A stretch of DNA of 64,000 nt. It comes from a virus. Positions 12,764 to 52,011 of this stretch are shown piece by piece. How positions within the stretch are numbered: position 1 is the stretch's first letter; every line of letters begins with the position of its first letter. A model generated the notes under the pieces. The model saw nothing but the letters and a program-made list of their open reading frames with translations, had not been told where the DNA came from and ran no database searches. The position numbers and the translations under genes are program-made. The DNA is taken from positions 52,049 to 116,048 of IMG/VR virus record IMGVR_UViG_3300028840_008184; one strand, 5' to 3'.

Positions 12764-12782
12764 TTTTTGCTACTATTGCTGC

Positions 12783-32413: not shown

Positions 32414-34234
32414 TTATGGTCTATATACTTTAATTCTTCTATATAATATGCGCAAAGTTGTATTATCGAGGCCATTTGTAGTTATACCTATGCCACATTT
32501 TCCAGTGCTATGTGACGTGTCTACTATCATTCGGAAATCACCTGAAGATGCTCCCTGTGCATTATAACCTAGGATTTGTCCCTCTGCTCTAATACGTCCT
32601 ACACCGCCACGACCTACATTGTCTGCTGGGCCAGGATTGCTTAAAATATCGCTATAAGATTCAGATCCAACGCATTTTGTTAAATCAAAGTCGGTCCCAG
32701 AACCAACATAACGCGCAAGATAAACATTGTCTGTTCCAGATGCGCGACAAAAAACGAATGGCCCGTGTGTCCCAGCTCCTATACTTACTGTCATCCAATC
32801 CGTTTCAACAATCACATCTTCGATATCAGGTAAATCAAATGGCAAATAAATAGCTTGTTGAGCGCCTGTACCAGTTCCAACGGCCAGTGTAATATCAATC
32901 CAAGAAAGCCCGTAAAGATTAGAAACTGTAATTGCGCTACTTCCAACATTAACAATACTGCCAACCCAACCATTGGCATCCAAGTCGGGCAAATATCCAT
33001 CGTATAGAAATTGACTAAGATCGGTGCCATTCCATTCGGTTATTAAAGTTGGGCCTCCTGGCATAACTGAGCCCTTGACAGTCATCTGAGTGGCGAACCC
33101 ATAATCATCCATATAATGTAATTCAGTATAACCATCCACTTTTTGTGCATACAGGGCACCATAGCCCTCTTCATAAGGTGGATCTGATACTTTTTCGGGG
33201 AGAGGTAGATATCCATCTACTAATCCGGAACCACCAGATATTTCAATGTCTGCCGTGCCATTGTTATCAGTTACAGCAACCCCAGAACCAAAAAAGTTAA
33301 ACGCTTGTGGCTGGCCTATTAAATTATAGCCGTCATCTTGGATAGGGACCAGACCGCCACGAAAGCGAATCACTTTTAACTTTGTGCCCGATGGCACTGC
33401 AGCACTATTACTGCTAACTTTAATTTGAATTTTTATGTTCTTCGTTCCTGCCGTAAGCTTTGGTGTAATCACGGGGCCAAAAGAGCCAGCACCAAGAGAT
33501 TCATAACCACTACTTTCACCAATTACGTCACTAGAAGGTATTAGAACCCCGCCTACATTATACTGCACATCAACTCTATTTGCCCCACCACTTCTGGTCA
33601 ATCTGCCTTCTAGAAATATCATAATTTGTTCATTGTTAAAAACATCAACATTAAGAGACAGAGCATCACCGCCACCATTATCAACATCTACAAATGATGT
33701 TGATGAGGTATTAAATTGGGCTAAAAGTTCTACGGAATCCACCAGTATCCCGCCGGCTCCAGAGCCAGTGACAGCAGTAAGCATTAAGACTGGAGGATGA
33801 TCTTGCGATGCTGTAACCTGAAAAGAAGTTCCGGCTAGAAGTTTCCCGTATGCCTTAACAGTATGGCTACCTGCAGAAAGCTCTACAACGTCGCGAAAAA
33901 CCGGCTCTGTATAATTTCCGGTTGTGGGGCGTGTTTGCCACTGCTCGTTATAACCAATTGTTTGTTCGTTAGCCTCTCCTTCATCAAATACCAGTTTAAT
34001 TTGGCCAGAAGAATTAGCACTTGGAGCGATTAATTCCCCGCTGAATTGGATAGAGTATAGGCCGCTAACTTTTGCAGTAAAAGATAGAGAGCCGCTTTCC
34101 GGCATAATTTGATAGTCGGTGCCAAGTGGAGTAGTAACTACAAGATTGCTAGAAGGAACTCCATCAGACAATACGATTACATCGCCTGGCGCAGAAAATA
34201 TTGCATCGCCTAGCTGATCAATTTTAATGGTCAT
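32414..34234 (-). CDS. Tail fibre/adhesin protein, last of four
   Basis: A 606-residue beta-rich protein. The N-terminus (MTIKIDQLGDAIFSAPG) is nearly identical to that of the next tail gene upstream. Then come a jelly-roll-like domain (SFVDVDNGGGDALSLNVDV to KLKVIRFRGGLVP), a PQAFNFFGSGVAVTDNNG linker and a GALYAQKVDGYTELHYMDD module. A C-terminal domain of about 200 residues looks like a lectin-type sandwich and is unique to this copy. The C-terminal domain is the likely receptor-binding part. The ribosome site is a weak AGAGG. Confidence 0.85.
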   Translation of the reverse strand: MTIKIDQLGDAIFSAPGDVIVLSDGVPSSNLVVTTPLGTDYQIMPESGSLSFTAKVSGLYSIQFSGELIAPSANSSGQIKLVFDEGEANEQTIGYNEQWQTRPTTGNYTEPVFRDVVELSAGSHTVKAYGKLLAGTSFQVTASQDHPPVLMLTAVTGSGAGGILVDSVELLAQFNTSSTSFVDVDNGGGDALSLNVDVFNNEQIMIFLEGRLTRSGGANRVDVQYNVGGVLIPSSDVIGESSGYESLGAGSFGPVITPKLTAGTKNIKIQIKVSSNSAAVPSGTKLKVIRFRGGLVPIQDDGYNLIGQPQAFNFFGSGVAVTDNNGTADIEISGGSGLVDGYLPLPEKVSDPPYEEGYGALYAQKVDGYTELHYMDDYGFATQMTVKGSVMPGGPTLITEWNGTDLSQFLYDGYLPDLDANGWVGSIVNVGSSAITVSNLYGLSWIDITLAVGTGTGAQQAIYLPFDLPDIEDVIVETDWMTVSIGAGTHGPFVFCRASGTDNVYLARYVGSGTDFDLTKCVGSESYSDILSNPGPADNVGRGGVGRIRAEGQILGYNAQGASSGDFRMIVDTSHSTGKCGIGITTNGLDNTTLRILYRRIKVYRP

Positions 34235-34269
34235 ATGTTATGAAAACCTCTATTAAAAAATCTCCTTTC

Positions 34270-37200
34270 TTATCCTGGAAATTGCCAAACAGCAGATCTG
34301 CCTGGTATTCCTGCAGTTGATGCATTCATGGTAAGTGTGCCAACCGAAGCGACTCTAAGTCCAATTTCAACAGTATGCGGCCCAACGGTCAAATGTTCAT
34401 CTCTAAGTGAACCTGAAATTCCTCCCCAAGCACCAGATGCTATATAGGTAGCAGCGAAACGTCGCCAAGTGCCACTATCTATACGATACCCTAGCCAAGG
34501 CGTAGAAGCACCGGAACTTGAAAGAGACATGGAAGCCTCAATTAGAATTTCATCTCCATCTCTTATTACAATATTATGCGTATTTATTGTAACAAAAGAT
34601 GTAGTAATACTTCCCACATCTGCGGAGTTTTTCTGAGCGTCTACAAGTGTTCCCCTAATGCCTTGGTTAGTAATCTGTGTAGACAGGCCATAGTCATCCA
34701 TATAATGCAACTCGGTATAGCCGTCCACTTCTTTCGTATAAATTAAACCAGCGTCATCTAGTGGAGATGGGTCAGACATCTCATCCAAATTTACATAGCC
34801 ATCTGGGAATACTGTGATTTCAGCAGCGCCATTGCTATCAGTTACACCTATATTGTTGCCAGTAAAGTTAAACGCCTGCGGTTGACCCAATAAGTCGTAG
34901 CCATCATTTTGAATTGGAACAAGGCCGCCGCGATATCTTGTAATAAAGAGCGACGATACACCTCTTGTTGCATCGCCTTCGATTGTTAGTGTACCTGAAG
35001 AGACATATGCCTGAGCCTTGATTGTATGCGAACCCGCAGATAGTCCGGCAATCGGAATGGCTATATCAAGGTTGGTACCTCCCGACGAATACGAAGCGCG
35101 TACGGATTCGTCAACAGGCGTACCATCTAGCACTATGCGAGACCATGCGCCTGCAGCGGTAGAGGTCGTCGCCGTCGCCCGCAGATATACAAAGACCGTT
35201 TCGTCTTCAGACGTATCAAAGGTGAGTTCGAGCTTATTCGCGCCATCGTCAATATCGGTCCAAGTACCTCCGATACCAGTTTGATCGGTTGTCAACGAAA
35301 TGCTATCTGTCAGGCTGCCTCCAGCCCCAGAGCCGGTGACGGCCTGAAGCCGGATAAATGGAGCACCAACGGGTCCGCTGCCCCCATTTATGTCCATATC
35401 ATTGGTATATGAACCAGCAGTCACTTCTTTACAATATGCCGTTACTTTATGTACACCAGCAACCAAATTAACATGACCTTCAAATACTGTATGATCCCAA
35501 CCACCAGGAGCCTTCCGCGTCTGCCAGTCTTCATTGTATCCGACGGACTGCTCTTCAGCCTCTCCCTCATCGAACACGAGTCTGAACTGTGCCGATGTGT
35601 GAGATTGACCACTGGGAACATTGACTATTACCCCAAGCATTGCTCGATATATACCAGATACCCTGGCAGTAAATTCCATATATGCATCAGGGCCAGCTGG
35701 GTCAGGAATTATCTGATTTTCGGCTCCGCTACCATTTATGTCGATATTGGCTGATGGCTGGCCGTCGCTAATTTCAATGTAGTCGCCTGGTGCAGCAATG
35801 GCCCCATTTCCAAGTCGCCCCTGAACAGTAATCTGTGTCTCATTACCAGAACTATCACGACTAAATAATTCTGTAACACCGTTACTATCTTTAGCATAAA
35901 GAGATAAACTACCTACTTGCTGCGATAGTTCAACCCCCTCCAATAATCTTATGCCTCTCAAAGAGTTATAAGTAGCAAGATATCCATCTTGGGTGATCTG
36001 AGTAACTTGACCATAATTATCCATAAAGAATAGTTCAGAAGTGCCATACGCATCATCATTCTTAGCATAAAGAAATCCACGATCATCGTCGGTGGCGTTT
36101 GGATCTGTGATTTCGGACAGGCTAACATAACCATCAAGATCAAGTGCTTCGTCACCAGAAGCGTCTATTTGAACCGCGCCAGCATCAGCAGTTATCGCTC
36201 TGCCGCCTATATATGCCTGATCAAGTGTGCTCGCACCAGAAATCATGGAAGATTCCAGATCAGCAAGATACCCATCGACATAACCCCTAACAATAACAAG
36301 AAATGAAATTGGGCCCACATTTTGAGAGCCCCATCTAAAATAAGCATCTCCATTGTGCAACGGCACCAAGGCCCTATTAGCATCACGCGCACTAAGATCA
36401 CAACTTATAAAAGCTCCAGGGCTTGCTCCAGATATTGTTGGAGTATACAAAACTTCGCCGCTTTCAATAAAAAGATCATATATCTCACCGCCATCCGTAT
36501 CCATATTGGCTGAAAAATCAACCTGCGCCGCAGAAATTGGCACTGCATCCCTTAGATCGTTTTGTGTGCCGCCACCTGGACCTGCACCAGATGTACTAAA
36601 AGAATACCATGTGTTTGCTGTTGGTGTTATCTCTGTTGCCCCACCACTACCACTATCATACAACCACAATGTACTATCTGTGGCATCTGGATAATCAAAC
36701 TTGTTGCCAGTTTGACTTACTATTCTTAACTTAGAAGAACCATCAATATAATAAACAGCCCCTAAGTATTTATAAATCGAATAATCTGCTGGCCCAAACC
36801 CAGGGTGCTGGTCAGAAGCTATAATACCAAAATAACCAGAATTATTAGTATCAGGAACTGCATAATTATAATACCATGTGCCACTAGTAAGAGCAGCGCT
36901 AGGTTCGCGCCCGCCCAATCCCGTAGTGCTTATATCCATCGAGATAGGGCTAGTTGCCTGATAGCGCACCCCATTATTAAATGTCAGCCGCAAATCATCG
37001 TTAGCTCCTGGTGCTGCCACATATTCATACTGATTGTCGCTAACATTATCCACAATAGGAGCATTTTCTGGTTGAATATAGCCGCCTCGGAATCTTATTA
37101 CTTGTAACCTAGCTCCCGCCAAAATTTGTATTGAAGTTGAAGAAGTTTGCGCCTGAACCATAATGGTCACAGAACCGGCTGAAAGTTCACCAGTGATTAC

Positions 37201-38526
37201 TGGGGTAAATGAACCAAGTGCTGTTGTGTACCCCGATGAATTACTTTCTCCCTGTACTGATAAAGGATATGCAGTTGCCCCTACCAAATACTGAATATCG
37301 ATTCTGTTTGCGCCACCAGAATGAACAGATTTACCTGACAGCACTAGCATAATGCGCTCGCCTTCAACAACATCTACAGTTACCGACAGAGAATCCCCAC
37401 TACCATTATCAACATCAACGAATGAGGTGCTGGATGTTGTGAAAGTCGATGCCAAAGCCACCTCTTCGACCAGTATACCTTCTGCTACGCCATTAAAGTT
37501 TATCGTAGCGGTCCCATCAATATCTGTAATGTCAACATTGGGTCCAACAAAATCAAATGCCTGTGGCTGTCCCACAATATCATAACCATCTTTCCGAATT
37601 GGAACAAGACCGCCACGGAATCTCCGCACCCAGGTACTACATTTTGGATAATATCCCCAACCAGACAGCCACTCGGTATCACCACCTAAAAAGTTCATGG
37701 GCTGGTTGTTTACCTCACCTGCAAAATCAATTGTATGACTACCAGCTGATAGCGTAAGAATCTTGGTGCCAACAAAAGTATATTCGTATTCGTTGGAGCA
37801 GAAGTCGCACATTACCCATGATCCTGAGTCAACACGATATAACACCGACCGGCCTGTTGGGGTACTTATGTTCTTATAGGTAGGAATAAACCAACCAATC
37901 TCTACCTGTTCATCCTGATAGGTAGTAAATGTTAAAGACAAATCAGTCAGTAGCGTTGCCGTAGCATTAACAGATATAGTCTGGTCAGATGTTTTTTCTG
38001 CTGTGCTCAGTAATGTACCCCCAGCTCCAGAACCCGAAATTAACTGCAACGTTACTTGAGGAGCAAGAACAGGAACAAGACCAACGATCCTCCACGCAGT
38101 TCCGTTAGTTTCTTGTCCATACACTTTAAGCGTGTGAGTACCAGCCGTTAAATCTACTTCTCCGGAAAGTGTTGGCAAAACATATGCGTTGCTCGCTGTG
38201 CGAACTTCCCAGTCAGAGTCATCGCCAACTGTTTGTTCTGCACTGTCATTTTCATCAAATAGAAGTTTATATCGCACACTTACAGCGCCAGTACCAAATA
38301 ACGTTATATTGGCTGTAACCAAATATTTTCCAGCTACAGGAACATCAAAAGTATGATAATTAGTATCTCCAGAGCCACCAGGTGGCGTATCAGGCCATGG
38401 TGAAACCTGCACAGAGCCAGCAGGAGCATCATAGTTGACTCCTGGAGGATTTTCACCGTGTATAACTATTAGAGAGCCTGGGGCAGAAAATATGGCATCT
38501 CCTAATTGATCGATTTTAATGGTCAT
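34270..38526 (-). CDS. Large mosaic tail fibre/adhesin protein
   Basis: A 1418-residue protein built from repeated phage tail modules. It shares its N-terminus with the gene at 32414. It then alternates jelly-roll-like domains that end in RFRGGLVPI or RFRGGYIQ, linkers of the PQAFNFTG type and short modules reading LYxKxxDGYTELHYMDDYG. A C-terminal domain begins near TLVDAQKNSADVGS. One part near 35400-35800 repeats the N-terminal SAPGDYIEISDGQPS unit. The repeats should form extended beta-structured fibres. Receptor binding is the usual role of such proteins. Confidence 0.85.
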   Translation of the reverse strand: MTIKIDQLGDAIFSAPGSLIVIHGENPPGVNYDAPAGSVQVSPWPDTPPGGSGDTNYHTFDVPVAGKYLVTANITLFGTGAVSVRYKLLFDENDSAEQTVGDDSDWEVRTASNAYVLPTLSGEVDLTAGTHTLKVYGQETNGTAWRIVGLVPVLAPQVTLQLISGSGAGGTLLSTAEKTSDQTISVNATATLLTDLSLTFTTYQDEQVEIGWFIPTYKNISTPTGRSVLYRVDSGSWVMCDFCSNEYEYTFVGTKILTLSAGSHTIDFAGEVNNQPMNFLGGDTEWLSGWGYYPKCSTWVRRFRGGLVPIRKDGYDIVGQPQAFDFVGPNVDITDIDGTATINFNGVAEGILVEEVALASTFTTSSTSFVDVDNGSGDSLSVTVDVVEGERIMLVLSGKSVHSGGANRIDIQYLVGATAYPLSVQGESNSSGYTTALGSFTPVITGELSAGSVTIMVQAQTSSTSIQILAGARLQVIRFRGGYIQPENAPIVDNVSDNQYEYVAAPGANDDLRLTFNNGVRYQATSPISMDISTTGLGGREPSAALTSGTWYYNYAVPDTNNSGYFGIIASDQHPGFGPADYSIYKYLGAVYYIDGSSKLRIVSQTGNKFDYPDATDSTLWLYDSGSGGATEITPTANTWYSFSTSGAGPGGGTQNDLRDAVPISAAQVDFSANMDTDGGEIYDLFIESGEVLYTPTISGASPGAFISCDLSARDANRALVPLHNGDAYFRWGSQNVGPISFLVIVRGYVDGYLADLESSMISGASTLDQAYIGGRAITADAGAVQIDASGDEALDLDGYVSLSEITDPNATDDDRGFLYAKNDDAYGTSELFFMDNYGQVTQITQDGYLATYNSLRGIRLLEGVELSQQVGSLSLYAKDSNGVTELFSRDSSGNETQITVQGRLGNGAIAAPGDYIEISDGQPSANIDINGSGAENQIIPDPAGPDAYMEFTARVSGIYRAMLGVIVNVPSGQSHTSAQFRLVFDEGEAEEQSVGYNEDWQTRKAPGGWDHTVFEGHVNLVAGVHKVTAYCKEVTAGSYTNDMDINGGSGPVGAPFIRLQAVTGSGAGGSLTDSISLTTDQTGIGGTWTDIDDGANKLELTFDTSEDETVFVYLRATATTSTAAGAWSRIVLDGTPVDESVRASYSSGGTNLDIAIPIAGLSAGSHTIKAQAYVSSGTLTIEGDATRGVSSLFITRYRGGLVPIQNDGYDLLGQPQAFNFTGNNIGVTDSNGAAEITVFPDGYVNLDEMSDPSPLDDAGLIYTKEVDGYTELHYMDDYGLSTQITNQGIRGTLVDAQKNSADVGSITTSFVTINTHNIVIRDGDEILIEASMSLSSSGASTPWLGYRIDSGTWRRFAATYIASGAWGGISGSLRDEHLTVGPHTVEIGLRVASVGTLTMNASTAGIPGRSAVWQFPG

Positions 38527-38568
38527 GTTTTAAAAAACCTCTGTTTTATGCTCTGCCTTTCTCCTTTC

Positions 38569-40629
38569 TTATGATCTGTATATGGCAATATACCAATCGC
38601 CAGATGAGCCCGAAGCTACAAATTCCGCCCTATTAAGCGACGTATTATAAGTCCATTCGATTTTACTAACTCCAAGAGAGCTAACATATCGCATTAATAC
38701 GCCATTCCTATAAACATCCAAATCTCTTAAAGAACGCCTACTAGGTGCAATCATTGGCACTTGTGAAAGCTGAATGAATGTTTCAGTTCCATCTGTAGAT
38801 GCCGGATCCAACTCATCTTCATAAGCAGTTGCGCCTATATTGAGTTTTCCATTATTTGTAATTTGCACTGATTGACCAGCATGATTCATATAGAATAATT
38901 CAAGGGCTGCAGGATTGTATCCGTCATAGGCATCTAAAACGTAAATCTCACCCTTGTTAAACTGCGGCTGCGGATCTTCAATCAAATAATGTAAACCAAG
39001 GTAGCCGTCAAGGTTCATAGCCTCATAGGCATCATATGCGTCAACATGGAAAGGTGTTCCTGGTACTATAACAATAGTATTTCCACTGTTATAAGCTTGC
39101 TGAAGAGTTCCACCACCTGCACCACCTGGTAAGTTGCCAACTTGAACTTTCTTTTTATTATTGGAATCGGCACTATCTTCTATAAGAAGCAAATCAGCTG
39201 CCACTGGAACTGCCTTTGCTGCTATGGCAGCAATTTCGCCAGCAACATTGTCATGAATTGCATCCGGATCGTTTCCGCCACCCCCAATTATAGAGCCCTT
39301 ATCGGTAATTTGTATTGCAGATCCGTAGCTATCCATATAATGGAATTCTGTATATCCATCGATATCTTTCGTATACATAATTCCAATATCTGGAGATGGA
39401 GTCGGATCGGGAATTTCTCCCAACGCCAAATATCCATCGGCTATAATATTGTCACCAGTTCCTCGTACTTGCACTGCTCCAAGAACAGGATTGTTGATTT
39501 CAGCGGTTCCTGCTGGATCTCCTGGCCCAGTGCCTGTATCAATAGTAATGTCTATATTGTGCGTGCCAGCAGATAAATTAGTAACAACATATGAGAAAGA
39601 TACGTTAGTTGCTTCCAATCCGCCACCGAGAACAGCCGCTAATATTGTAGTATAATAAGTATATACGGTAGTGCTCCCTACCGTTAAATGAATATATATA
39701 TTTTCATATGGATTTGGTGGCACAGTAGTTGGCTTAACCGAACCTGAAAAAGATACCAGTATATCTTCTCCAGCCTTTGTTGTAATGCTTGTGAAAACAA
39801 CAGGAGGAGAAGGAAATGAACCAGTTGGTATGCCTGTTGCTCCTTTTAGTGCATCGTCAACAGTGCCAACCAAACCGGACCCCATATCTGACATTTGATA
39901 CGCCTGTCCATAATCGTCCATAAAGAACAACTGGTTATATCCATCTACCGACTTCACATATAATAGGCCCTTTCCAGGAATTGGCTCAGGATCATAGCCA
40001 TCGACAAGTCCGATGTAGCCGTCTATATTAAGTGCCTCGTAGCCGTATGCGTCAACAATAATTGGTCCATCTACTAAATAGAGATCAGCACCATTAAGAT
40101 AAGCCTGCTGTAATGTAAGAGAGCCACCGCCACCACCGCTAATTTGTCCATTACTAGTTATCTGTATATCATTACCTGAGCTGTCACGCGCAAAAAGCTC
40201 AGTATTACCGGAGACTGTTTTTGCAAACAGCGTGAAGCTACCAGGCTGGTTAGGTAGATCTTCGCCCTCAAGAAGTCTAACGCCACGGAGGCTGTTATAA
40301 GTAGCTAAATACCCATCTTGCGTAATTTGAGTTACTTGACCATAACTGTCTATAAAGAATAATTCGGTTGTACCGTATGCATCGTCTTCTTTCGTATATA
40401 TGCTGCCATAATTGTCCAATGTGGGAGGATCCACATCCCTTTCTGGCATAGGCAAGTAACCATTAACTAATCCAGAACCTCCAGAAGCAACTCCAAATTC
40501 GAGTCCATCTTCTCCAGCTTTTACTATTATTGCTTTGCCACTCTGTCCAGCATAACTGCTAGGAGTATCCAGCAAATCTGTAAATTCTGAATAGCCATCG
40601 TCAATCTGAAAAGGCTGTAATTTAACCAC
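38569..40629 (-). CDS. Tail fibre/adhesin protein
   Basis: A 686-residue protein starting with GTG, supported by GGAGG eight bases upstream. Four or more copies of the LYxKxxDGYxELFFMDDYG module are present, with TLQQAYxxG linkers. The C-terminal block (about 85 residues, DELDPASTDGTETF to GDWYIAIYRS) is also found in the middle of the 1790-residue neighbour. It was therefore swapped or duplicated between the genes. It is likely a fibre or fibre-adaptor subunit. Confidence 0.83.
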   Translation of the reverse strand: MVKLQPFQIDDGYSEFTDLLDTPSSYAGQSGKAIIVKAGEDGLEFGVASGGSGLVNGYLPMPERDVDPPTLDNYGSIYTKEDDAYGTTELFFIDSYGQVTQITQDGYLATYNSLRGVRLLEGEDLPNQPGSFTLFAKTVSGNTELFARDSSGNDIQITSNGQISGGGGGSLTLQQAYLNGADLYLVDGPIIVDAYGYEALNIDGYIGLVDGYDPEPIPGKGLLYVKSVDGYNQLFFMDDYGQAYQMSDMGSGLVGTVDDALKGATGIPTGSFPSPPVVFTSITTKAGEDILVSFSGSVKPTTVPPNPYENIYIHLTVGSTTVYTYYTTILAAVLGGGLEATNVSFSYVVTNLSAGTHNIDITIDTGTGPGDPAGTAEINNPVLGAVQVRGTGDNIIADGYLALGEIPDPTPSPDIGIMYTKDIDGYTEFHYMDSYGSAIQITDKGSIIGGGGNDPDAIHDNVAGEIAAIAAKAVPVAADLLLIEDSADSNNKKKVQVGNLPGGAGGGTLQQAYNSGNTIVIVPGTPFHVDAYDAYEAMNLDGYLGLHYLIEDPQPQFNKGEIYVLDAYDGYNPAALELFYMNHAGQSVQITNNGKLNIGATAYEDELDPASTDGTETFIQLSQVPMIAPSRRSLRDLDVYRNGVLMRYVSSLGVSKIEWTYNTSLNRAEFVASGSSGDWYIAIYRS

Positions 40630-40711
40630 TTTGTGGTACCTCCGAGAAAATATATTTCTTAAACCTTACCTTTCTATTATCTATGAATTCCTGGCAGAAA
40701 AATTGCACTCT

Positions 40712-40750
40712 CTACCACTCGGAAATTTGAAATGATTTTACCTTTGCCAC
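40712..40750 (-). pseudogene. Remnant duplicated start of a tail gene
   Basis: In the 162-bp gap between two tail genes, GGAGG is followed by GTG and 12 codons (MAKVKSFQISEW) before a TAG. The downstream gene at 40629 begins MVKLQPFQIDDG with the same GGAGGTxxxxxCAAAGTGG leader. This looks like a truncated duplicate start. A functional leader peptide is possible but less likely. The rest of the gap (40630-40791) shows no gene. Confidence 0.5.
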
Positions 40751-40791
40751 TTTGAGGTTTACCTCCGGTAAATATTTATATTTCTCCTTCC

Positions 40792-43700
40792 TTAACTTAC
40801 TATAGCCCTATCAGTAACGCGGCGCCAATTAGTCCCATCAGAAAATGCCGGAACTGCGCCACCAGATTCGTCTGGCACAAAAACCATTTGTCCGGCTGGA
40901 GACGCAGCTGGCAATTGTGCTACATTATAGCTAGGCAACAGATTATAAAGCGCCCCTCTTCTCGTAATTTGAACGGACTCATCATAATTATCTACGTGAT
41001 GAAGCTCAGAATACCCATCTACATCTTTGGAATACAACAAACTGGCGTTGTCCAAACCTACCGGATCGGAAATTTCATCCAGAGTAATATATCCATCTAT
41101 CTCAAGTGCTTCATCACCTGATGCATCAATAATAACAGAACCAGCATCAGCTGTGATCAACCTTCCCGCTCCAGGGCCACCCTCATCATATGCTTGGTCA
41201 AGCGTATTATGAGTTACAGCAAGCGAGCCGCCTTGAGTAATTTGCGTAATTTGACCCGAATGATCCATATATAATAGTTCTAGGCCATAACCAGGGACAT
41301 CATATACAAACAACTGCCCCTTGTTAAATTGCGCATCTGGATAACCATCCAAATAATGTAAACCAAGATAGCCATCAAGATTTAGTGCTTCGTAAGAATC
41401 ATATGCGTCAATGTGTACTGGCACCCCAGGCCAAACTATTATCGTGTTTCCGTTGGCATAGGCTTGCTGCAAGGTTACATTGTGCGGGTTAGAAGTATCA
41501 TTGGCATGATTGTTAAAAACCGATAGTGTTGCATAGCTATCAAGCAACGTCTTTTCAGCAAGAGGATCAATATCCGCCAAAGTGGCATAGCTATCAAGCA
41601 ACGTCTTTTCAGCAAGAGGATCAATATCCACCAAAGTGGCATAGCTATCAAGCAACGTCTTTTCAGCAAGAGGATCAATATCCACCAAAGTGGCATAGCT
41701 ATCAAGAAGCGCCTTTTCAGCAAGAGGATCAATATCCACCAAAGTGGCATAGCTATCAAGAAGCGTGCTATCAATAAGAGTTGCATCTGATACCAAAGCA
41801 TTAAGCTCAGCAAGAGTGCTACTGGTGTGTTCCGAACCACCCAAAGCGTGCTTGGCTAGAGTTCCACCCTGAGTAATTTGTGTAACCACCCCAGCATGAT
41901 CCATGTAGAGCAGTTCGAGCCCAGAACCAGGAACATCAAATACGAACAATTGACCTTTATCAAACTGAGCATCTGGGTAGCCGTCAAGATAATGTAAACC
42001 AAGGTAGCCATCAAGATTAAGGGCCTCATAAGAATCATAGGCATCAATGTGAACTGGCATTCCAGGTATTATTATAATGCTGTTTCCACTAATATAAGCT
42101 TGTTGAAGCGTTACATTGTGAGGGTTGGACATATCCGAAGTATGATTTGTTAAAGCCGTTGTTGTCGCATAACTATCAAGTAGCGTATCATCAATAAGGG
42201 TTGCGTCCGACACCAAAGCATTGAGTTCAGCAAGAGTGCTGCTGGTATGTTCAATTCCACCCAAAGCGTGTTTGACCAGAGTTCCATCCTGAGTCAATCT
42301 TACCGCAACACCATAATTATCCATATAGAATAGCTCAGTATAGCCGTCCATAAGCTTCCCGTATAGATAACCGTCATATCCATCTGGATCCACTGATGGA
42401 TCTGCCACCTGCTGTTCTATTCTTATATAATCAAGATCTCCAATTTGTATATCTGCTACGCCATTATTATCAGCTACTATAACCCTGCCTGTAAAGTTAA
42501 AGGCGGCTGGAATATCAACAATGGTTGTTCCCTCATCTTGAATTGGAACCAAACCACCACGGAACTGTAGAACTTGTAGTGTTCCATAGGCATCAACGGT
42601 TAAAGTGCCAGCGCCATCCTTCATTATTTGAAAGCTGGCTGTGTGATTTCCAGCCGTAAGAGGTGGTGTTACATAGCTCTTACTAATGTCTTTAGCTTGG
42701 CTCAAACCTTCTCTTACACCGTCTTGATATCTATATCCATCAACAGCAAAAGAAGTAAAAGCATTAACAACAGAGGTTGTACTAATACTTCCACTATAGA
42801 CAAGCAGAACTTCTTCATTTTCTACAGTATCAAAGCTCACATTGAGTTCGGTAACAGTTTCCCAAGTATCTACGGACACATAGTTTTTACTAACTGTGAG
42901 CATAGTTTGGTCAGACAAAGCGCCGCCTGCTCCAGAACCTGCAAGATTTATAGCCACAAGGTTTACATAATCATCTGTGTTGATTTGAGCACCTGAGCCG
43001 CCGCCGTCATTCTGGTATTGTACAGTAATCTTGTGATTTCCGAAGCCCATTTCAACCATATGAGTAGTAAAAGAAGCGGAATAGTGCTCACCAGAAGTAA
43101 CACTAATAATATTCCAAGCATCATTATCAGTTGGTTCTATAATTTGTTCTGTAAATCCATTGTAGTCGCCTTTATCTACAATAACACGGAAATTGGTGCG
43201 TTGAGAAACTCCAGAAGCCTGATACACCTGGACATTGAACGTAAGAATGTAGCTGCCCGCCACAACAGCATCAAAATATCCGTCGGCTCCAGTTATATCT
43301 ACGAAGGATGTAGATGTTAGACCAACGGCAACAGAAGGTACGAATTCTATTACTGCGTCTGCGAATCCAGAGTTGGTAACAGCAGTGGTATTTAGTCTGC
43401 CACCAAGCGTTACCTGTGTCTCATTCCCGCCACTATCTTTTGTAAATAGCTCGGTTATACCGTTGCTGAGTTTGGCGTAGAGTGAAACTCTTCCAACCTG
43501 ATCTGTAAATTCTGTTCCCTCAAGAAGACTTACGCCTCTAAGAGAATTGTAAGTGGCCAAATATCCGTCTTGTGTAATTTGAGTGATCTGGCCACTGTCA
43601 TCCATATAAAATAGTTCAGAGGTTCCGTATGCGTCATCATTTTTGGAATATAGGAAACCCTTGTTGGCTACATTTGTAGGATCAGTAATCTCATTGAGCA

Positions 43701-46164
43701 GCATATAGCCGTCAAGTTCCAGCGCATCATTTCCAGAAGCATCCATAACCACAGCGCCTGCGTCTGTTGTTATTACTCTGCCAGCTCCTGCGCCACCTTG
43801 ATCATATGCCTGGTTCAAAGTGTTAGCGCCAAGAGTTGATCCATCCTGGGTAATCTGCACTTCGTTGCCAGCAGCATCCTGGTAGAAAAGCTCTGTGTCG
43901 CCGCCATCATCTTTTGCATAGATGTGGCCTTCATTTGGTAATCCTGTGGGAGCAGCTATTTCAGCAAGACTCAAATATCCATCAATGCCAATAGCTTCGT
44001 CGCCACCGGCATTTACAATAACTCCACCAGAGTCTGCTGTAATAATCCTGCCTGCTCCAGCACCACCTTCATCATAGGCTTGATCCAGGGTATTACCATC
44101 ACCTCCAACAGGAGAGCCCTTGTTGGTAATTTGTGTAGCAAGACCGTAATCGTCCATGTAGAACAATTCGGTGTATCCGTCAATTTCTCTGGAATATACC
44201 AATCCAGCATCTGCAAGATTGGATGGGTTAGAAATCTCATCTAATGTTAAATAACCATCTATTTCAATAGCCTCATTCCCCGAGGCATTAATAATCACAG
44301 CACCAGCATCGGCAGTAATAACTCTGCCCATATTGTATGCCTGATCCAACGAGTTAATGGCAATTTCCGGATCGGTTTTATACCTTGCGGCATACCAAGT
44401 TCCGGCTACGCCAGAAGCAACGAACTCAATGCGGTTTAGTGTAGCATTATATGTCCATTCAGTCTTGCTGGCTCCCAGAACAGCCACCCAACGCATTCTT
44501 GCGCCATTCTGGAAAACATCCAAAGCATAGCCAGAAGGCATATTATTTTGAACCATAGGAGTTCCAGTAAGCGGCAGAGAGGTCTCAATTCCGGTAGTAG
44601 TTGCCGGATTAAGCTCGTCAAACTGCTCTAATACGGTGTAGCCGTCTATGCCAAGATAGCCATCTGAGGTTATTTGGATTACATTGCCATCGCCATCCTT
44701 GTAGAAAAGCTCGGTGTTGCTGGCAATTTCCTTGGTGTACAGAAAGCCCTTATAAGGGGCAGTAGTAGGATCGGAAGGCTGCATGAATAGTCCGACACCT
44801 CTAAGGCTCTCAAAAGTGTCTAAATATCCATCGTTTGTAATACGAGTTATAGCACCAGCATCATCTATGTAATGAAGCTCTACTGCTCCGTCCACGGTTT
44901 TTGCGTATAGGTAGCCATCGTTAGCTGTTGAAGCAGTTGGATCAGCACCTTGCGTTGGTAGAGCCAAAAACTCTTCGGTTTCTACAACAAGCTTTTCGTC
45001 GCCGCCGGGATTTAACTCATCAAATACAATGTTCAAACCAGGGGACATCTTATCTTCAAGAAATCCTGGTGTTGTATCTGTAGCGCTTTTCTTAAGCTCA
45101 TAGGCGTCCGCGAGTGCGGACATATTTAAGAAGCCGTTTTTGGTAATCTGAACGACATTGCCAGAATCATCTTTATAGAAAAGCTCTGTGTCACCGGAGT
45201 CATCCTTGGTATATACGCTTCCAACCCCAACTTCTACGACAGGATCAGAGGCTATTTCACTAAGGGCGAGATAACCATCAAGCAGGCGAACATTGCCTGA
45301 CGTAAGCAGTACGTCTCCAGTATCTGCCAACAGAGCGTAATTGAAGGGCAACGTGCCGCTTGTAGCTTTGTATGCCACCATCAGGCCACTTACTGGAACG
45401 CCAGGATCCAGTGTCTCGGCACGGAAAAGATCAGTCTCAGAATCTGACGCATTGCCAGGCAAAATATCCACATAAGAATAGACGCCCAAAGCTGTGAACC
45501 CACCTGCGGGTAGGGCGCTTATAAGCTGCGAAGCTACCGAAATCGGCTCGGTATATCCATCCTGGGCAAGTGCAAATCTTACTCCAATTTGGTTATTTAC
45601 GTCTACGGCAGTTATGTCGGTCTCAAGAATTGGTTCTTGGTTTAGATCTCCAGTAGCAGCTAGGCTAAGTCCACTATCACCCCCGGATACATTCAGAAGA
45701 ATAGGTCCAGAGTCAACGGCAATAATTCTTCCAGAACCTGCGCCCCCTTCGTCATACGCCTGATCAAGAGTATTTCCTATGGCAGAGTTGGTATCAATGG
45801 CAACAAAGGCATCATACATGGCCTTGGACCAACCAATTGTTGATCCGTATTCGTCTTCCTCTCCTGTAGCTGGTATACGGATATTGAGATTGGCAGTTCT
45901 GACCGCAGCTATGGCGATGTCCGTCACTGAGCCGTTTACTGTGAGGCGGATTCGATAGGAACCTACACTATCTACTGTTTTTAGAGTAGGGGTTTTGGTT
46001 GTTGGGTTCTGGATCCAAGCGGCTGAGCCTGGTGGAGCAGACAAAAGCGCCCAGAGCCTCGTAGAAGCGCCTACTCCTACATCATTCAGATTTACGTCAA
46101 CGCCTAGCGGCAAATTAGTAACGCTGCCGACTTGACCGTTAATTTCTATGATTGCTGTGGCCAT
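40792..46164 (-). CDS. Giant repetitive tail fibre protein
   Basis: A 1790-residue protein, first gene of the tail cluster. It has an N-terminal Ig/PKD-like domain (about 1-100). Then follow many copies of a module pair: NTLDQAYDEGGAGAGRIITADAG with EALEIDGYITLDEISDP, and a strand motif TELFYMDDYGxxTQIT. Jelly-roll-like domains and a run of 18-residue repeats near the C-terminus (encoded at 41531-41765) follow. The end (VYSDGTNWRR-like, FSDGTNWRRVTDRAIVS) is typical of phage tail fibre tips. AGGAGG, ten bases before the ATG, lies inside a hairpin that may control translation. Confidence 0.87.
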   Translation of the reverse strand: MATAIIEINGQVGSVTNLPLGVDVNLNDVGVGASTRLWALLSAPPGSAAWIQNPTTKTPTLKTVDSVGSYRIRLTVNGSVTDIAIAAVRTANLNIRIPATGEEDEYGSTIGWSKAMYDAFVAIDTNSAIGNTLDQAYDEGGAGSGRIIAVDSGPILLNVSGGDSGLSLAATGDLNQEPILETDITAVDVNNQIGVRFALAQDGYTEPISVASQLISALPAGGFTALGVYSYVDILPGNASDSETDLFRAETLDPGVPVSGLMVAYKATSGTLPFNYALLADTGDVLLTSGNVRLLDGYLALSEIASDPVVEVGVGSVYTKDDSGDTELFYKDDSGNVVQITKNGFLNMSALADAYELKKSATDTTPGFLEDKMSPGLNIVFDELNPGGDEKLVVETEEFLALPTQGADPTASTANDGYLYAKTVDGAVELHYIDDAGAITRITNDGYLDTFESLRGVGLFMQPSDPTTAPYKGFLYTKEIASNTELFYKDGDGNVIQITSDGYLGIDGYTVLEQFDELNPATTTGIETSLPLTGTPMVQNNMPSGYALDVFQNGARMRWVAVLGASKTEWTYNATLNRIEFVASGVAGTWYAARYKTDPEIAINSLDQAYNMGRVITADAGAVIINASGNEAIEIDGYLTLDEISNPSNLADAGLVYSREIDGYTELFYMDDYGLATQITNKGSPVGGDGNTLDQAYDEGGAGAGRIITADSGGVIVNAGGDEAIGIDGYLSLAEIAAPTGLPNEGHIYAKDDGGDTELFYQDAAGNEVQITQDGSTLGANTLNQAYDQGGAGAGRVITTDAGAVVMDASGNDALELDGYMLLNEITDPTNVANKGFLYSKNDDAYGTSELFYMDDSGQITQITQDGYLATYNSLRGVSLLEGTEFTDQVGRVSLYAKLSNGITELFTKDSGGNETQVTLGGRLNTTAVTNSGFADAVIEFVPSVAVGLTSTSFVDITGADGYFDAVVAGSYILTFNVQVYQASGVSQRTNFRVIVDKGDYNGFTEQIIEPTDNDAWNIISVTSGEHYSASFTTHMVEMGFGNHKITVQYQNDGGGSGAQINTDDYVNLVAINLAGSGAGGALSDQTMLTVSKNYVSVDTWETVTELNVSFDTVENEEVLLVYSGSISTTSVVNAFTSFAVDGYRYQDGVREGLSQAKDISKSYVTPPLTAGNHTASFQIMKDGAGTLTVDAYGTLQVLQFRGGLVPIQDEGTTIVDIPAAFNFTGRVIVADNNGVADIQIGDLDYIRIEQQVADPSVDPDGYDGYLYGKLMDGYTELFYMDNYGVAVRLTQDGTLVKHALGGIEHTSSTLAELNALVSDATLIDDTLLDSYATTTALTNHTSDMSNPHNVTLQQAYISGNSIIIIPGMPVHIDAYDSYEALNLDGYLGLHYLDGYPDAQFDKGQLFVFDVPGSGLELLYMDHAGVVTQITQGGTLAKHALGGSEHTSSTLAELNALVSDATLIDSTLLDSYATLVDIDPLAEKALLDSYATLVDIDPLAEKTLLDSYATLVDIDPLAEKTLLDSYATLADIDPLAEKTLLDSYATLSVFNNHANDTSNPHNVTLQQAYANGNTIIVWPGVPVHIDAYDSYEALNLDGYLGLHYLDGYPDAQFNKGQLFVYDVPGYGLELLYMDHSGQITQITQGGSLAVTHNTLDQAYDEGGPGAGRLITADAGSVIIDASGDEALEIDGYITLDEISDPVGLDNASLLYSKDVDGYSELHHVDNYDESVQITRRGALYNLLPSYNVAQLPAASPAGQMVFVPDESGGAVPAFSDGTNWRRVTDRAIVS
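41531..41765 (-). repeat. Tandem 54-bp in-frame repeat
   Basis: Four full 54-bp units begin at 41531, 41585, 41639 and 41693, with a partial fifth from 41747. Each encodes 18 residues of the form LLDSYATLVDIDPLAEKT. Units differ by one to three bases, so they arose recently by slippage or unequal recombination. They would extend a helical or coiled spacer in the fibre and may vary in copy number. Confidence 0.95.
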
Positions 46165-46173: not shown

Positions 46174-46249
46174 ATCCTCCTGCCGTATCTCTCTGGATAT
46201 GGATTTCCATTAATATTTTAGAATATTAATAGATACGGCAGGATAGGAT
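46174..46249 (-). promoter_or_regulatory. Hairpin hiding the tail-gene ribosome site, with an internal promoter-like motif
   Basis: Perfect 12-bp arms (46179-46190 and 46231-46242) extend by one pair, and after a 2-base bulge by four more (46174-46177 with 46246-46249). The right arm begins at the gyrB stop. The GGAGG ribosome site (46180-46176) would be fully paired. Inside lies a second 9-bp inverted repeat (46209-46217 with 46222-46230). Transcripts from gyrB could fold and block translation, while transcripts starting inside would lack the upstream arm and stay open. Confidence 0.65.
46224..46232 (-). promoter_or_regulatory. Promoter-like motif CTATTAATA
   Basis: The minus strand reads GTATCTATTAATATTC, 60 bp upstream of the giant tail gene's ATG. 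It is a one-base variant of the recurring motif and spans the junction of the nested inverted repeats. Confidence 0.5.
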
Positions 46250-48162
46250 TATATGTCTAATCTAGCTTTTAAAGCCCCTTCTTCAATGAGCATTCTCCTT
46301 GGTTCAACTGCTTTGCCCATAAGGATGCCAAAAATCCTATCAGCTTCTAAATAATCAGTAATTTCCATTTTCACAAGTTCCCTAGTTTTTGGATCCATGG
46401 TTGTATTCCACAACTGAGTAGGGCTCATTTCTCCAAGCCCCTTAAATCTTTGGATATTCCCCTTAAACTTCTTTTCTTTGATAAAATCTTTGAGAGACTT
46501 ATCATCTTTTAAATAATAGCTTTTTCCGCGAATATCTATTCTGTAAAGTGGAGGTTGAGCCACATATATGTTGCCGTTCATAATCAACTGAGGCATCTGT
46601 CTGAAGAAAAAGGTCAACAATAATGCGCGGATGTGAGAGCCATCAACATCTGAGTCAGTCATTATGATAATTTTGTTGTAGCGAATCTTAGCTAAATCGA
46701 TGCTTCTACCAATTCCAACACCTATGGCTGTGATAAGATTACCGATTTCCTTGTTGCTCATCATTTTACTGAACTCGTTCTTCTCGATGTTGAGAACTTT
46801 ACCACGAAGAGGCAGAATAGCTTGAAACATTCTGTCCCTGCCCTGCTTGGCTGAACCACCAGCTGAATCTCCCTCGACAATAAATATTTCACAAATTTCT
46901 GGATCTTTGGAACTGCAATCCGCAAGTTTCCCAGGAAGCAGCATTCCGCCATCCTTGAGCACGGATTTTCTAACTGCCTCCTTGGCTTTCTTGGCTGCCT
47001 CTCTGGCCTTGAAGGCATTTACACATCGAGTCACTATTTTCTTGGAAAGTGGTGGATTTTTCTCCAAATAGTCCATAAGTTTCTCAGCAACAGTGCTCTC
47101 TACAGCCGTCCTGGCGTCCTCAGACACCAATTTTTCCTTGGTCTGCGAGCTAAACTTGGGGTTTGGGTGCCTGATGCTAAGAACTGCTATTAAGCCTTCC
47201 CTAATGTCGTCTCCAGACAGCGAGATTTTAAGGGATTTTGGGAGATCCGAGCTTGCTATGAAGCCATTTACGGTTCGAGTTATAGCAGTTTTGAAGCCAA
47301 CCACATGAGATCCGCCGTCTGGGTTGGGGATATTATTCGTATAACACTGCAATATTTCATCATCTTCCGCGCTGTCGAGCCACTGGAAAGCAACATCTAC
47401 TACAATTTTGGATCCATTGCCAACTTCTTGCGTAAATTCAAAGGGTTTGGTTAATAGTTTGCCTGGAGCAAGAAACTCCACGAAGTCAGAGATGCCCTCA
47501 TCGCTTCCAAACACCTCTTTATCTTTAGCTTTTTCATCAATGAACTCAATGGTTAGGCCCTTACAGAGAAAAGAAAGCTCTCTGAGCTTTTGTTTTACTC
47601 TTTCGCCGTCGAACTTAATTACATGATGGAATATGTTGTTGTTGGGGACAAATCTAATTGTGGTTCCTCTGCCCTTTCCAGTTTTTTCATCCACGCCCGC
47701 CACTTTTTTACCTTTTTCGTAGGCAACGGTGTATTCTTTGCCGTCTCTACGCACAGTTGCCCTGAGACGAGTCGAAAGAGCATTAACAACGGACACACCA
47801 ACTCCATGTAATCCACCAGAGACAGCGTAAGCCTTTTTGTCAAACTTTCCTCCAGCATGTAGCTTTGTGAGAACGGCCTCCAGCGCCGTCATCTTTTCCT
47901 CTTTCATGTATTTCACAGGGATGCCACGACCATTGTCGGCTACGGAGGCGGATCCGTCCTTGTGGAGGGAAACCACAATCTTGTCGCAGTGACCAACCAT
48001 GAACTCATCTACGCTATTGTCCAACACTTCCATGATCATGTGGTGGTACCCAGTGCCGTCTTCTGTGTTGCCGATATACATGCCTGGATTCTGCACGACT
48101 CCTTCAAGACCCTTGAGAACCTTGATGTCATCGTAGCTGTCTTTCTTTTTTCTTGGCGTCAT
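46249..48162 (-). CDS. gyrB: DNA gyrase/topoisomerase IV subunit B
   Basis: A 637-residue type IIA topoisomerase ATPase subunit, the same length as bacterial GyrB of the short type. The GHKL ATPase has EVLDNSVDEF, DNGRGIPV and GLHGVGVSVVNALS. The TOPRIM domain has EGDSAGGSAKQGRDR, PLRGKVLNIEK and the DSDVDGSHI acidic set. IQRFKGLGEM marks the C-terminal part. It would relieve supercoils with GyrA from the host or from elsewhere in the phage genome, as no gyrA lies in this window. A YacG-like gene sits two genes upstream. Confidence 0.96.
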   Translation of the reverse strand: MTPRKKKDSYDDIKVLKGLEGVVQNPGMYIGNTEDGTGYHHMIMEVLDNSVDEFMVGHCDKIVVSLHKDGSASVADNGRGIPVKYMKEEKMTALEAVLTKLHAGGKFDKKAYAVSGGLHGVGVSVVNALSTRLRATVRRDGKEYTVAYEKGKKVAGVDEKTGKGRGTTIRFVPNNNIFHHVIKFDGERVKQKLRELSFLCKGLTIEFIDEKAKDKEVFGSDEGISDFVEFLAPGKLLTKPFEFTQEVGNGSKIVVDVAFQWLDSAEDDEILQCYTNNIPNPDGGSHVVGFKTAITRTVNGFIASSDLPKSLKISLSGDDIREGLIAVLSIRHPNPKFSSQTKEKLVSEDARTAVESTVAEKLMDYLEKNPPLSKKIVTRCVNAFKAREAAKKAKEAVRKSVLKDGGMLLPGKLADCSSKDPEICEIFIVEGDSAGGSAKQGRDRMFQAILPLRGKVLNIEKNEFSKMMSNKEIGNLITAIGVGIGRSIDLAKIRYNKIIIMTDSDVDGSHIRALLLTFFFRQMPQLIMNGNIYVAQPPLYRIDIRGKSYYLKDDKSLKDFIKEKKFKGNIQRFKGLGEMSPTQLWNTTMDPKTRELVKMEITDYLEADRIFGILMGKAVEPRRMLIEEGALKARLDI

Positions 48163-48165: not shown

Positions 48166-48582
48166 TTACCCCGTGCGCTTCTTCTCCAATTTTTTGGATA
48201 TATTTTCTAATACGGTTCGTATCTCCAAGCCCTCATACCTGGCCAGGGTGAGGGCCATCATCACAACGTCGCAGATTTCCTCTTCAAGCATATCATCTGC
48301 ACTTACATCACCAAACTTTTTCTTCTTGTTGGTGGAGCCATTTTCAAACTCAATCGCCTCTGCGTATTCTCCAATCTCTTCCATGAGTTTCCTGAATAGC
48401 CTATCTCTATTCTCATTTTCCCATATCTTCCATCTTCTCAAGAGATCGGCTATGTCGTCGTCAGCATAATCTACCAGATCACCAGTGCCCATTTCATATT
48501 CAACATCACGGGCCAAAACCTTTCGCTCGTTCTCTTTGATTTCTGCCCATCTATCATAATGGGTGTCTTTTCTCCAGGCCAT
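48166..48582 (-). CDS. MazG-like nucleotide pyrophosphohydrolase
   Basis: A 138-residue all-alpha protein. E69xxE72 in LMEEIGEYAEAIE and E102xxD105 in EEEICDVVMMAL fit the MazG/iMazG metal-binding motif, which hydrolyses NTPs or dNTPs to monophosphates. The ATG at 48582 has GAGG nine bases upstream; the longer frame would run through the YacG-like gene. The context with dNTP enzymes suggests nucleotide-pool cleaning or lowering of (p)ppGpp-type signals. Confidence 0.83.
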   Translation of the reverse strand: MAWRKDTHYDRWAEIKENERKVLARDVEYEMGTGDLVDYADDDIADLLRRWKIWENENRDRLFRKLMEEIGEYAEAIEFENGSTNKKKKFGDVSADDMLEEEICDVVMMALTLARYEGLEIRTVLENISKKLEKKRTG

Positions 48583-48583: not shown

Positions 48584-48757
48584 TTAATTTCCCTCATCTG
48601 TATGCGGATTTTTCTCCGAAATGAAATACTCTTCATTTAACCACTTATACAAATCTAAGTTTTTGCACAAGAGACAGCAGAAAGGAAAGTTTCCATTTTC
48701 CTTTGCTTTATCTACATCATGATTTTTCTTGCATCCTGGACAAACTATAGTTTTCAC
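48584..48757 (-). CDS. yacG: YacG-like zinc protein, likely gyrase-binding
   Basis: A 57-residue protein with a GTG start overlapping the upstream TGA (GTGA) and GAGGAGG just before it. It has the DNA gyrase inhibitor YacG layout. CPGC (C6, C9) and CCLLC (C27, C31) form CX2C...CX3C, followed by DLYKWLNEEYFI, where YacG has a DLxxWxxxxYxI stretch. In E. coli YacG binds GyrB and blocks its DNA binding. Here it lies 422 bp upstream of the phage gyrB start in the same operon. It may protect phage gyrase, or act on host gyrase. The fit is by motif and context only. Confidence 0.82.
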   Translation of the reverse strand: MKTIVCPGCKKNHDVDKAKENGNFPFCCLLCKNLDLYKWLNEEYFISEKNPHTDEGN

Positions 48758-48942
48758 CCCTCCTCCTCGATTTTCATAAACTCATCTATCTCTTCTTCTG
48801 TATGTCCGACGCTCGGGTAACAACAATATTTGGTGTTTGCTTCTAACATATTAGAGATGTTTTCCTTATCTTTGTCGCTCAAAATAACCATAATTGGTTG
48901 GTCTTCAGCATCGTATATCGTATCACCAATTTTTACCTTCAT
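48754..48942 (-). CDS. Small unknown acidic protein
   Basis: A 62-residue acidic protein (MKVKIGDTIYDAEDQPIMV...). AAGGAG lies six bases before the ATG, inside the RNase HII gene's end. The sequence YCCYP near residue 40 is its only Cys pair. The function is unknown; it is coupled at its stop codon to the YacG-like gene. Confidence 0.8.
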   Translation of the reverse strand: MKVKIGDTIYDAEDQPIMVILSDKDKENISNMLEANTKYCCYPSVGHTEEEIDEFMKIEEEG

Positions 48943-49675
48943 TTACTTCTCCTTGTTTAACTTCTTTCCACGGATCAAAGTGGCCGTGTTTCCACAGCTT
49001 ATAATGAGTCTTCTTGTGCGCCATTTTTTCTTTGTTCTCATATTCCAGATAATCCTCAAGAGTCTTTCCATCTTTTAAGAACTCCTGATATTGATTGTGG
49101 CAGAAAAGGCAATATTGGAAATATCCAAAGTTCTCTCTGTGTAGTGTAGTAGGGCCATGTTCAATTACTCCAAGCCGATGCTTGGGACTATAATAGCCTG
49201 CGTTCTGTTCCCAATCATAATAGCTAAACTTCTCAACAGTCGCAAGCATGGCCATCACACTATCTCTCATTACCTTTGCGAGGATGCTTGCTGCACCGAC
49301 TTGCCAGATCGTTTCATCTGCCTTAATTACGGCTTCCTGCTGAATATCGACATTTGGAATCTCATAATTCCCATCGACTATGATCTTATCGATTCTATGA
49401 TTTTCTTTTAGCTTATCCACAGCCCGCTTCATCGCGAGGAAACGAGCCCAGAAGATATTCATCTCCTCGATTTTCTTGGGAGAGGCTGTGCCGAAAGCGT
49501 GTGGAAGAACAACGCTTAAATATTTGTAAAGCTCTTCCCGTTTCTTCTTGGAAAGCTTCTTACTGTCTTTCACGCCTTTAATTAATGGGGCATCTGCTCG
49601 TGAAATTACGGCACATGCTAAAACGGGCCCTGCTATGGACCCGTATCCTACTTCATCGACATATACTATATTCAT
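48923..49675 (-). CDS. rnhB: Ribonuclease HII
   Basis: A 250-residue RNase HII that removes ribonucleotides and RNA primers from DNA. It has the DEVGYGSIAGPV catalytic motif (D7, E8), a VDGNYEIP segment with the third Asp, ASILAKVMRDS and the YYSPKHRLG...GPTTLHRENF C-terminal motif. A further 55 residues beyond the usual end are basic. Phages more often use RNase HI or a 5' exonuclease, so RNase HII here is a mildly unusual choice for primer removal. Confidence 0.94.
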   Translation of the reverse strand: MNIVYVDEVGYGSIAGPVLACAVISRADAPLIKGVKDSKKLSKKKREELYKYLSVVLPHAFGTASPKKIEEMNIFWARFLAMKRAVDKLKENHRIDKIIVDGNYEIPNVDIQQEAVIKADETIWQVGAASILAKVMRDSVMAMLATVEKFSYYDWEQNAGYYSPKHRLGVIEHGPTTLHRENFGYFQYCLFCHNQYQEFLKDGKTLEDYLEYENKEKMAHKKTHYKLWKHGHFDPWKEVKQGEVNEGKNW

Positions 49676-50730: not shown

Positions 50731-51200
50731 AGAATCCCCAATTTTCTCACTTGGATTAAACTTAATTGTCGGGTTGGTTTAGTTCTTGGGGTAAGGCCAC
50801 CCACCACATCATCGGATTCTATAAATCTGTAATGGATTTCAGGAAACTTTAGACTATCGATTATTATGAACCCCTTTATTCTATTTAGTTTGTCTATGTA
50901 TTTCTCTTCATCATACTTTCTGCCCTGCCCTATCATATAAGATGGAACAAACTTGACGCCATATTTCGTGAGTATCCTGACTTCATAGAGCAGTTCCTCG
51001 CTACTTACATCATAGAATCCCCCTTCATCATCGTTGTAGTCCAGATTTTCATATGCCTTGGTAAGTAATCCAGCAGCAATAGTGCCGAGAACTCTACCAT
51101 CCACGCCCTTGAGGTTTATCAGAAGCTCCAAAGTAGTTTTTATATCATCCGGCAGCGGGTCAACACACAAAACCCTTTCTTTAATTGGTTCAAAAATCAT
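50727..51200 (-). CDS. Unknown protein
   Basis: A 157-residue protein, predicted alpha/beta, with a helical middle (TIAAGLLTKAYENLDY). No family is recognised. GGAGG lies upstream of the ATG inside the methyltransferase gene's end, so the two are coupled. Confidence 0.75.
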   Translation of the reverse strand: MIFEPIKERVLCVDPLPDDIKTTLELLINLKGVDGRVLGTIAAGLLTKAYENLDYNDDEGGFYDVSSEELLYEVRILTKYGVKFVPSYMIGQGRKYDEEKYIDKLNRIKGFIIIDSLKFPEIHYRFIESDDVVGGLTPRTKPTRQLSLIQVRKLGIL

Positions 51201-52011
51201 ATCTTTCCTCCACCAATCTTATAAGCTCTCTTTTAGAAAGTGAGCGAACACCTGCCGTATTATTTATTATCTTCGAAAAATCTATCGAGTTGATAATACT
51301 AACAAGCTCATCTGTTTCAAGCTCTTTAGACTTGATAAAGTAGTTGCTCTGCTCACTCATTTCGCTTATATTTACAAAAACTCTGCCGGTGCTTCCGCCT
51401 ACCCTTCTAACCGCAAAATCACAATCTTCCTTTGTCGCAAAATCAAACAAATCTGTGGTGATTTTGAGCTTAACTATCTCTCTTTCAACCTCTCTCCTTT
51501 CCCATATTTGGAAAGCACAAGGCACATCTATCTCCTCGCCTTCATATATGAAAGACCTTTTTGGTATATCTTCGTCATGTATTAGGTGGAAGCTTTTGTG
51601 AAGTCTATTTTGGACGCTTATTTTTCTAAAGGTTCTTGGAAGTATAAAAGCTATGTAAGTGGAGAACTCGGCAGCGTGGTTGAAAAATCTAACGGCAATG
51701 CTGGCGTTTCTCCCAAAAGGGGGATTACCAAAACAACAAACCTTCTCGCCATTTAGATTGGCGCCTTCTGGATGGAAGGCAAAGAAATCCATTTCAACAA
51801 TGGAGGGATGGGCGGGATACTTATCAATCGCTATGCAGTAGCCATCTATCTGTCGTGAAAAACTTCCATTTCCCGCTGATGGCTCAATGAACACATCTAT
51901 GTCGCTGATTTTGGATAGGATAGAAATTATGCATTTTCTTGCGACATCTACCTTGGTGTAGTATTTATCATGAACCGAATTGGTCTTATACTTTCTTTTT
52001 TCTTTAGTCAT
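51190..52011 (-). CDS. DNA methyltransferase, N6-adenine type
   Basis: A 273-residue class I SAM-dependent methyltransferase. EPSAGNGSF near residue 42 is SAM-binding motif I, and GNPPFG near 93 is the NPPF/Y catalytic motif IV of amino-methyltransferases acting on adenine (or N4-cytosine). No matching restriction enzyme is visible, so it more likely shields phage DNA from host restriction or marks it for regulation. The target sequence cannot be read from the gene. Confidence 0.88.
   Translation of the reverse strand: MTKEKRKYKTNSVHDKYYTKVDVARKCIISILSKISDIDVFIEPSAGNGSFSRQIDGYCIAIDKYPAHPSIVEMDFFAFHPEGANLNGEKVCCFGNPPFGRNASIAVRFFNHAAEFSTYIAFILPRTFRKISVQNRLHKSFHLIHDEDIPKRSFIYEGEEIDVPCAFQIWERREVEREIVKLKITTDLFDFATKEDCDFAVRRVGGSTGRVFVNISEMSEQSNYFIKSKELETDELVSIINSIDFSKIINNTAGVRSLSKRELIRLVEERYDF

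Follow-up and report, generated by a model that had tools for sequence, protein, structure and literature searches.

The 57-aa protein encoded at positions 48584–48757 of the window is a genuine YacG-family protein, and it belongs to a lineage of phages that keep its gene upstream of a gyrB of their own. The window is the stretch of 64,000 nucleotides analysed here and corresponds to bases 52049–116048 of IMG/VR record IMGVR_UViG_3300028840_008184 (116,048 bp). Terminase and portal genes are present in this record, which is a fragment of a tailed phage, and the DNA was thus rightly labelled as phage at the outset. We propose, with about even confidence, that this YacG-family gyrase regulator is co-inherited with the phage GyrB among large phages of one lineage, in whose contigs no GyrA was found, and that it acts as a brake on a hybrid gyrase.

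The yacG gene lies on the minus strand, with a GTG start at 48757 and a stop codon at 48584–48586, and its product is VKTIVCPGCKKNHDVDKAKENGNFPFCCLLCKNLDLYKWLNEEYFISEKNPHTDEGN. The start is preceded by GAGGAGGAGG, with the Shine-Dalgarno-like sequence GAGGAGGAGGG immediately before it at 48758–48768 (minus strand), and the GTG shares bases with the stop codon of the 62-aa frame ahead of it. The preliminary description had taken this short GTG-start frame for a gene similar to yacG. That it is a real gene is indicated by GAGGAGGAGG before the start and by a match to the YacG family (PF03884) far beyond chance (E = 1.8e-13, profile positions 2–50 of 52), with the family matching in the corresponding position in all five related phages described below. 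The HMM search proposed in that description gave a score of 50.4 bits, about twice the gathering cut-off of 25.5 bits. The pattern CX2C...CX3C plus DLxxWxxxxYxI that it had noticed is formed by C6-X2-C9, C27-X3-C31 and D35-L36-xx-W39-xxxx-Y44-x-I46. The protein scored 32 bits against the NCBIfam YacG equivalogs NF001638 and NF002362, below their cut-offs of 79–83, but this shortfall is uninformative because the YacGs of Acinetobacter, Legionella, Verrucomicrobia and Planctomycetes likewise fell under the cut-offs.

The protein has in common with E. coli YacG (PF03884; PDB 1LV3 and 4TMA) the zinc-finger motif, the DLxxW motif, a net acidic tail and the predicted fold. Identity is 35% over the alignment, with the four cysteines, PFC, DL and the tryptophan retained; the docking residue W39 aligns with E. 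coli W40, following DLxx in both. Cysteines C6, C9, C27 and C31 form a putative zinc site and are invariant across 12 aligned sequences. An AlphaFold2 model built from these 12 sequences had a mean pLDDT of 84.5, and its best four Foldseek matches in the PDB were YacG chains I–L of the gyrase–YacG crystal 4TMA (probability 0.95–0.99, TM 0.53–0.68), with unrelated matches below a probability of 0.4. The E-values of these four matches (0.07–0.14) are modest, as expected for so small a protein. Profile match, fold and conservation in related phages together support the YacG identity of the frame. The window protein differs from E. coli YacG in an aromatic residue beside the tryptophan and in a shorter tail, with 18 residues and a net charge of −4 after the tryptophan versus 25 residues and −5 in E. 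coli. The shorter tail could weaken inhibition, and gyrase inhibition by the phage protein is putative. The gene setting is also different, since E. coli yacG lies beside coaE-zapD and the window gene beside phage gyrB.

The surrounding minus-strand cluster is headed by an RNase HII gene (48923–49675; PF01351, E = 3.1e-33), followed by the 62-aa frame from the frame list (48754–48942), for which no family match was found, and by yacG. Next are a MazG-like nucleotide pyrophosphohydrolase gene (approximately 48166–48582; PF03819, E = 1.2e-8), gyrB (46249–48162) and the gene of a large fibre-like protein. The start of the MazG-like gene was set at the ATG at 48582, while the listed frame opens at 48636. 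The placement of yacG two genes upstream of gyrB, as first described, therefore stands. Elsewhere in the window, a frame at 51190–52011 matched PADLOC models of type II DNA methyltransferases (E = 1.1e-46) and had no Pfam match. The tripeptide DGY is abundant in the large fibre-like proteins at 32414–46164, with 22 copies in a 1790-aa protein against 0.9 expected from its composition.

Searches of IMG/VR with one or two YacG sequences did not find a phage YacG. A search with an alignment of five bacterial YacG sequences returned one phage, L014 (301,683 bp). An alignment of two GyrBs, those of the window and L014, was then searched against IMG/VR and gave 26 viral contigs that included the remaining relatives. 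PF03884 was over its cut-off in five of these contigs (L014 and L024–L027), which were also the top five GyrB matches of the 26, with GyrB identities of 55–65%; counting the window, the family was found in 6/6 phages. Most other YacG matches in viral collections were bacterial, either chromosomal yacG genes next to prophages or bacterial contigs under a wrong label. In INPHARED they lay beside Maf and RNase E/G genes or beside hemH and trmB, or were on Salmonella and E. coli contigs, and plasmid matches were on megaplasmids or other bacterial replicons. Contigs classed as viral often carried a bacterial chromosomal yacG at their edge, as in L013 and L015–L018, beside integrase-like genes or structural genes of phages. 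The flank of yacG looks like a prophage integration site there, and such contigs lead to wrong assignments of YacG to phages. Such matches are what speaks for bacterial contamination or a chance frame in the window as well. We consider this extremely improbable, and it is refuted by synteny, since the window yacG is embedded in a cluster of phage genes that relatives also keep, and in three of these the terminase is 72–73% identical. No terminase was found in L024 and L025, which are contigs of 50 and 100 kb that may not cover this gene.

All five relatives carry yacG upstream of gyrB on the same strand at a distance of 0–4 kb. The two genes directly adjoin in L026, where stop and start overlap as TAATG. 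One gene lies between them in L024 and L027 and two in L014, and in L025 they are approximately 4 kb apart with MazG and methyltransferase genes in between. The order in L014 is RNase HII, YacG, MazG, an extra treble-clef gene, GyrB and a fibre protein, and its RNase HII, YacG and GyrB are 48%, 40% and 64% identical to those of the window. A MazG gene is thus found between yacG and gyrB in L014, L024 and L025 too, and RNase HII-like genes lie upstream of yacG also in L024, L026 and L027. The link between yacG and phage gyrB put forward in the preliminary description is strongly supported by its conservation in six phage contigs. The six phage GyrBs form one clade (SH-aLRT 100), so the pairing is one lineage trait and not six independent events. 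In the tree this clade nests with GyrBs of Proteobacteria and Verrucomicrobia. Inference of the host through GyrB failed, as the phage GyrBs are at most approximately 52% identical to the bacterial GyrBs found, and strong support was absent from the YacG tree.

Several other features were observed in these relatives. Inteins interrupt gyrB in L026 (9989–12808) and L027 (6270–9491), as seen from Pfam intein-splicing matches. Several small genes in L014 (8702–9971), L026 (3607–9822) and L027 (1766–5224) share the leader MKIRxGFVSNSSSSSF on unrelated bodies, and some of them sit directly upstream of yacG; the leader was not found in the record of the window. Near the yacG–gyrB cluster L026 encodes an Eco29kI-type restriction endonuclease (7640–8254; PF09517, E = 1.6e-60), and L027 contains a frame similar to it (3270–3890).

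The phage proteins could instead be zinc fingers of the YacG fold that departed from gyrase and took another role in a nucleotide/DNA cluster with RNase HII, MazG and GyrB. Their low identity (33–52% among the six phages and, for the window protein, the 35% to E. coli YacG given above) would fit this, as would the shorter tail and the scores below the NCBIfam cut-offs, although several bacterial YacGs share the latter. However, the docking tryptophan, DL, PFC and the four cysteines are invariant in all six phage YacGs and yacG is always near gyrB, and we regard such a departure as improbable.

GyrA (PF00521) was not found in any of the six YacG records, including the 301-kb one, and PF03989 was not found in the five relatives. 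The lineage likely has no gyrA, with the reservation that the records may be fragments. This is unlike other phage type II topoisomerases, as 18 of the 26 contigs from the GyrB search carry PF00521 and thus add an A-type subunit, and none of these 18 has YacG; leaving aside the YacG contigs, GyrA is present in 18/21 viral GyrB contigs. With the window counted, YacG occurs in 6/9 GyrA-less and 0/18 GyrA-bearing records (Fisher p = 2.8e-4, uncorrected for ancestry), an association that may reflect a single event given that the six GyrBs are one clade. The three records that have neither GyrA nor YacG are the 333-kb phage L028 (G006), a contig whose end falls within gyrB, and a fragment of 10 kb. 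Since such YacG-less, GyrB-only records exist, YacG characterises a single phage lineage and is not a rule for GyrB-only phages. The GyrB of L028 bears an insert; from its length and its position in the Toprim domain, an intein in gyrB (9983–13027) is inferred. GroEL-like and IMP dehydrogenase-like genes, named by eye, are near gyrB in this phage.

The finding of no gyrA changes the mechanism that has to be considered. The established action of YacG is to bind GyrB and to block the DNA gate, while topoisomerase IV is spared (PMC10886550), and the phage GyrB is a candidate target. The 637-aa GyrB of the window, identified by Pfam, NCBIfam, motif positions and alignment with E. coli GyrB, has the ATPase, Toprim and C-terminal domains (PF00204, PF00986, PF01751 and PF02518) and intact catalytic motifs (EGDSAGG at 430 and DSDVDG at 503), and it lacks the large insertion present in the E. 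coli protein. According to a paper on Toprim inhibitors (PMC5507300), F513 of E. coli GyrB contributes to the binding site of YacG residue 40. This residue is printed as F40 in that paper but is Trp in the E. coli sequence, and a critical tryptophan of YacG is mentioned in a review (PMC10886550). The equivalent of F513 in the phage GyrB is F518. The contact region reads TF-x-FRQMPQLI in 6/6 phages versus TFFYRQMPEIV in E. coli, and differs in ParE. Also retained in the phage GyrBs is the equivalent of Q517, a residue common among bacteria with YacG. Among 46 bacterial genomes with a readable GyrB, Q or H occupied this position in 17/17 genomes with YacG versus 14/29 without (Fisher p = 2e-4), the remainder of the latter having Y or N. 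As a marker of YacG-bearing genomes Q/H517 was nevertheless rejected, as control for ancestry leaves approximately two informative pairs, in the same direction (p = 0.5). From these residues the phage GyrB looks YacG-competent, and the safe reading is that, at the sole known contact site, nothing suggests an escape of the phage GyrB from YacG.

This bears on the question of whether the phage may discriminate between its own and the host enzyme, as was suggested in the preliminary description. In a version of this idea adjusted to the missing GyrA, the phage YacG would inhibit host gyrase, and an insensitive phage GyrB would take host GyrA, shifting supercoiling to the DNA of the phage. The GyrA-less YacG records and the linkage of yacG to gyrB are consistent with this, and there are precedents in the phage peptides Igy and Gip, which inhibit host gyrase (PMC10886550). 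In addition, the residue beside the docking tryptophan is aromatic in phage YacGs (DLY/DLW) and mostly Gly in bacteria, which could shift specificity, but DLY also occurs in a planctomycete YacG. Since the F513 and Q517 equivalents are kept in the phage GyrBs, there are no escape changes at these positions and the discrimination is not supported. We therefore see such a host-directed exchange of subunits as possible but doubtful.

Instead, we favour a hybrid gyrase that a paired YacG would reversibly restrain, based on the established action of YacG and the anatomy of the locus. Phage GyrB would combine with host GyrA to form the hybrid. For docking, YacG would use its zinc finger and Trp39, which would settle on the Toprim face of this subunit in the way that Trp40 of the E. 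coli protein docks close to F513. The C-terminal tail, which is net acidic in all six phages, would reach the DNA gate between GyrB and GyrA and reversibly keep DNA out. Made next to gyrB, YacG would then serve as a brake or guard on the gyrase that contains phage GyrB and, provided that the host GyrB shares this docking site, would probably restrain host gyrase as well. The takeover version, in which host gyrase is switched off and the phage hybrid on, is attractive, but the evidence from the sequences leans slightly against selective resistance. That GyrA-less large phages take over host gyrase in this way, with phage GyrB capturing host GyrA and YacG stopping the gyrase that contains host GyrB, seems rather unlikely.

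A protective function was considered as well, in which YacG shields the gyrase containing phage GyrB from poisons or toxins of the host or its mobile elements. For the E. coli protein, protection of gyrase against external poisons has been reported (Biswas 2023, cited in PMC10886550). However, the phage locus shows no sign of a poison, and PADLOC matched neither yacG nor gyrB of the window, so that we give this function a low probability.

The nearest known phage systems differ from the paired brake that we propose. For the Pseudomonas prophage vB_PaeP-D14I a YacG-like gyrase inhibitor was proposed on the basis of HHpred and of Phyre2, the latter at a confidence of 52.5 (PMC10449497). This is also a YacG in a phage genome, but the consulted part of that paper reports no pairing with gyrB. 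Igy of LUZ24, a proposed DNA mimic, and Gip of a Corynebacterium prophage, which binds GyrA, are likewise small phage proteins that act on gyrase, though by other modes, and pairing with a phage GyrB is not mentioned for them (PMC10886550). Phage type II topoisomerases such as the T4-like one likewise include a phage-encoded GyrB-type subunit, the large subunit (phrog_543). Within a partial coverage of the literature, which leaves priority unproven, we found no report of YacG–GyrB pairing in phages or of YacG together with a jumbo phage.

Work on YacG has dealt with it as a regulator encoded on bacterial chromosomes. Its retention next to GyrB in a phage lineage where GyrA was not found points to the control or capture of gyrase by subunit exchange during infection, and the yacG and gyrB of this lineage constitute a two-gene module that is directly testable.
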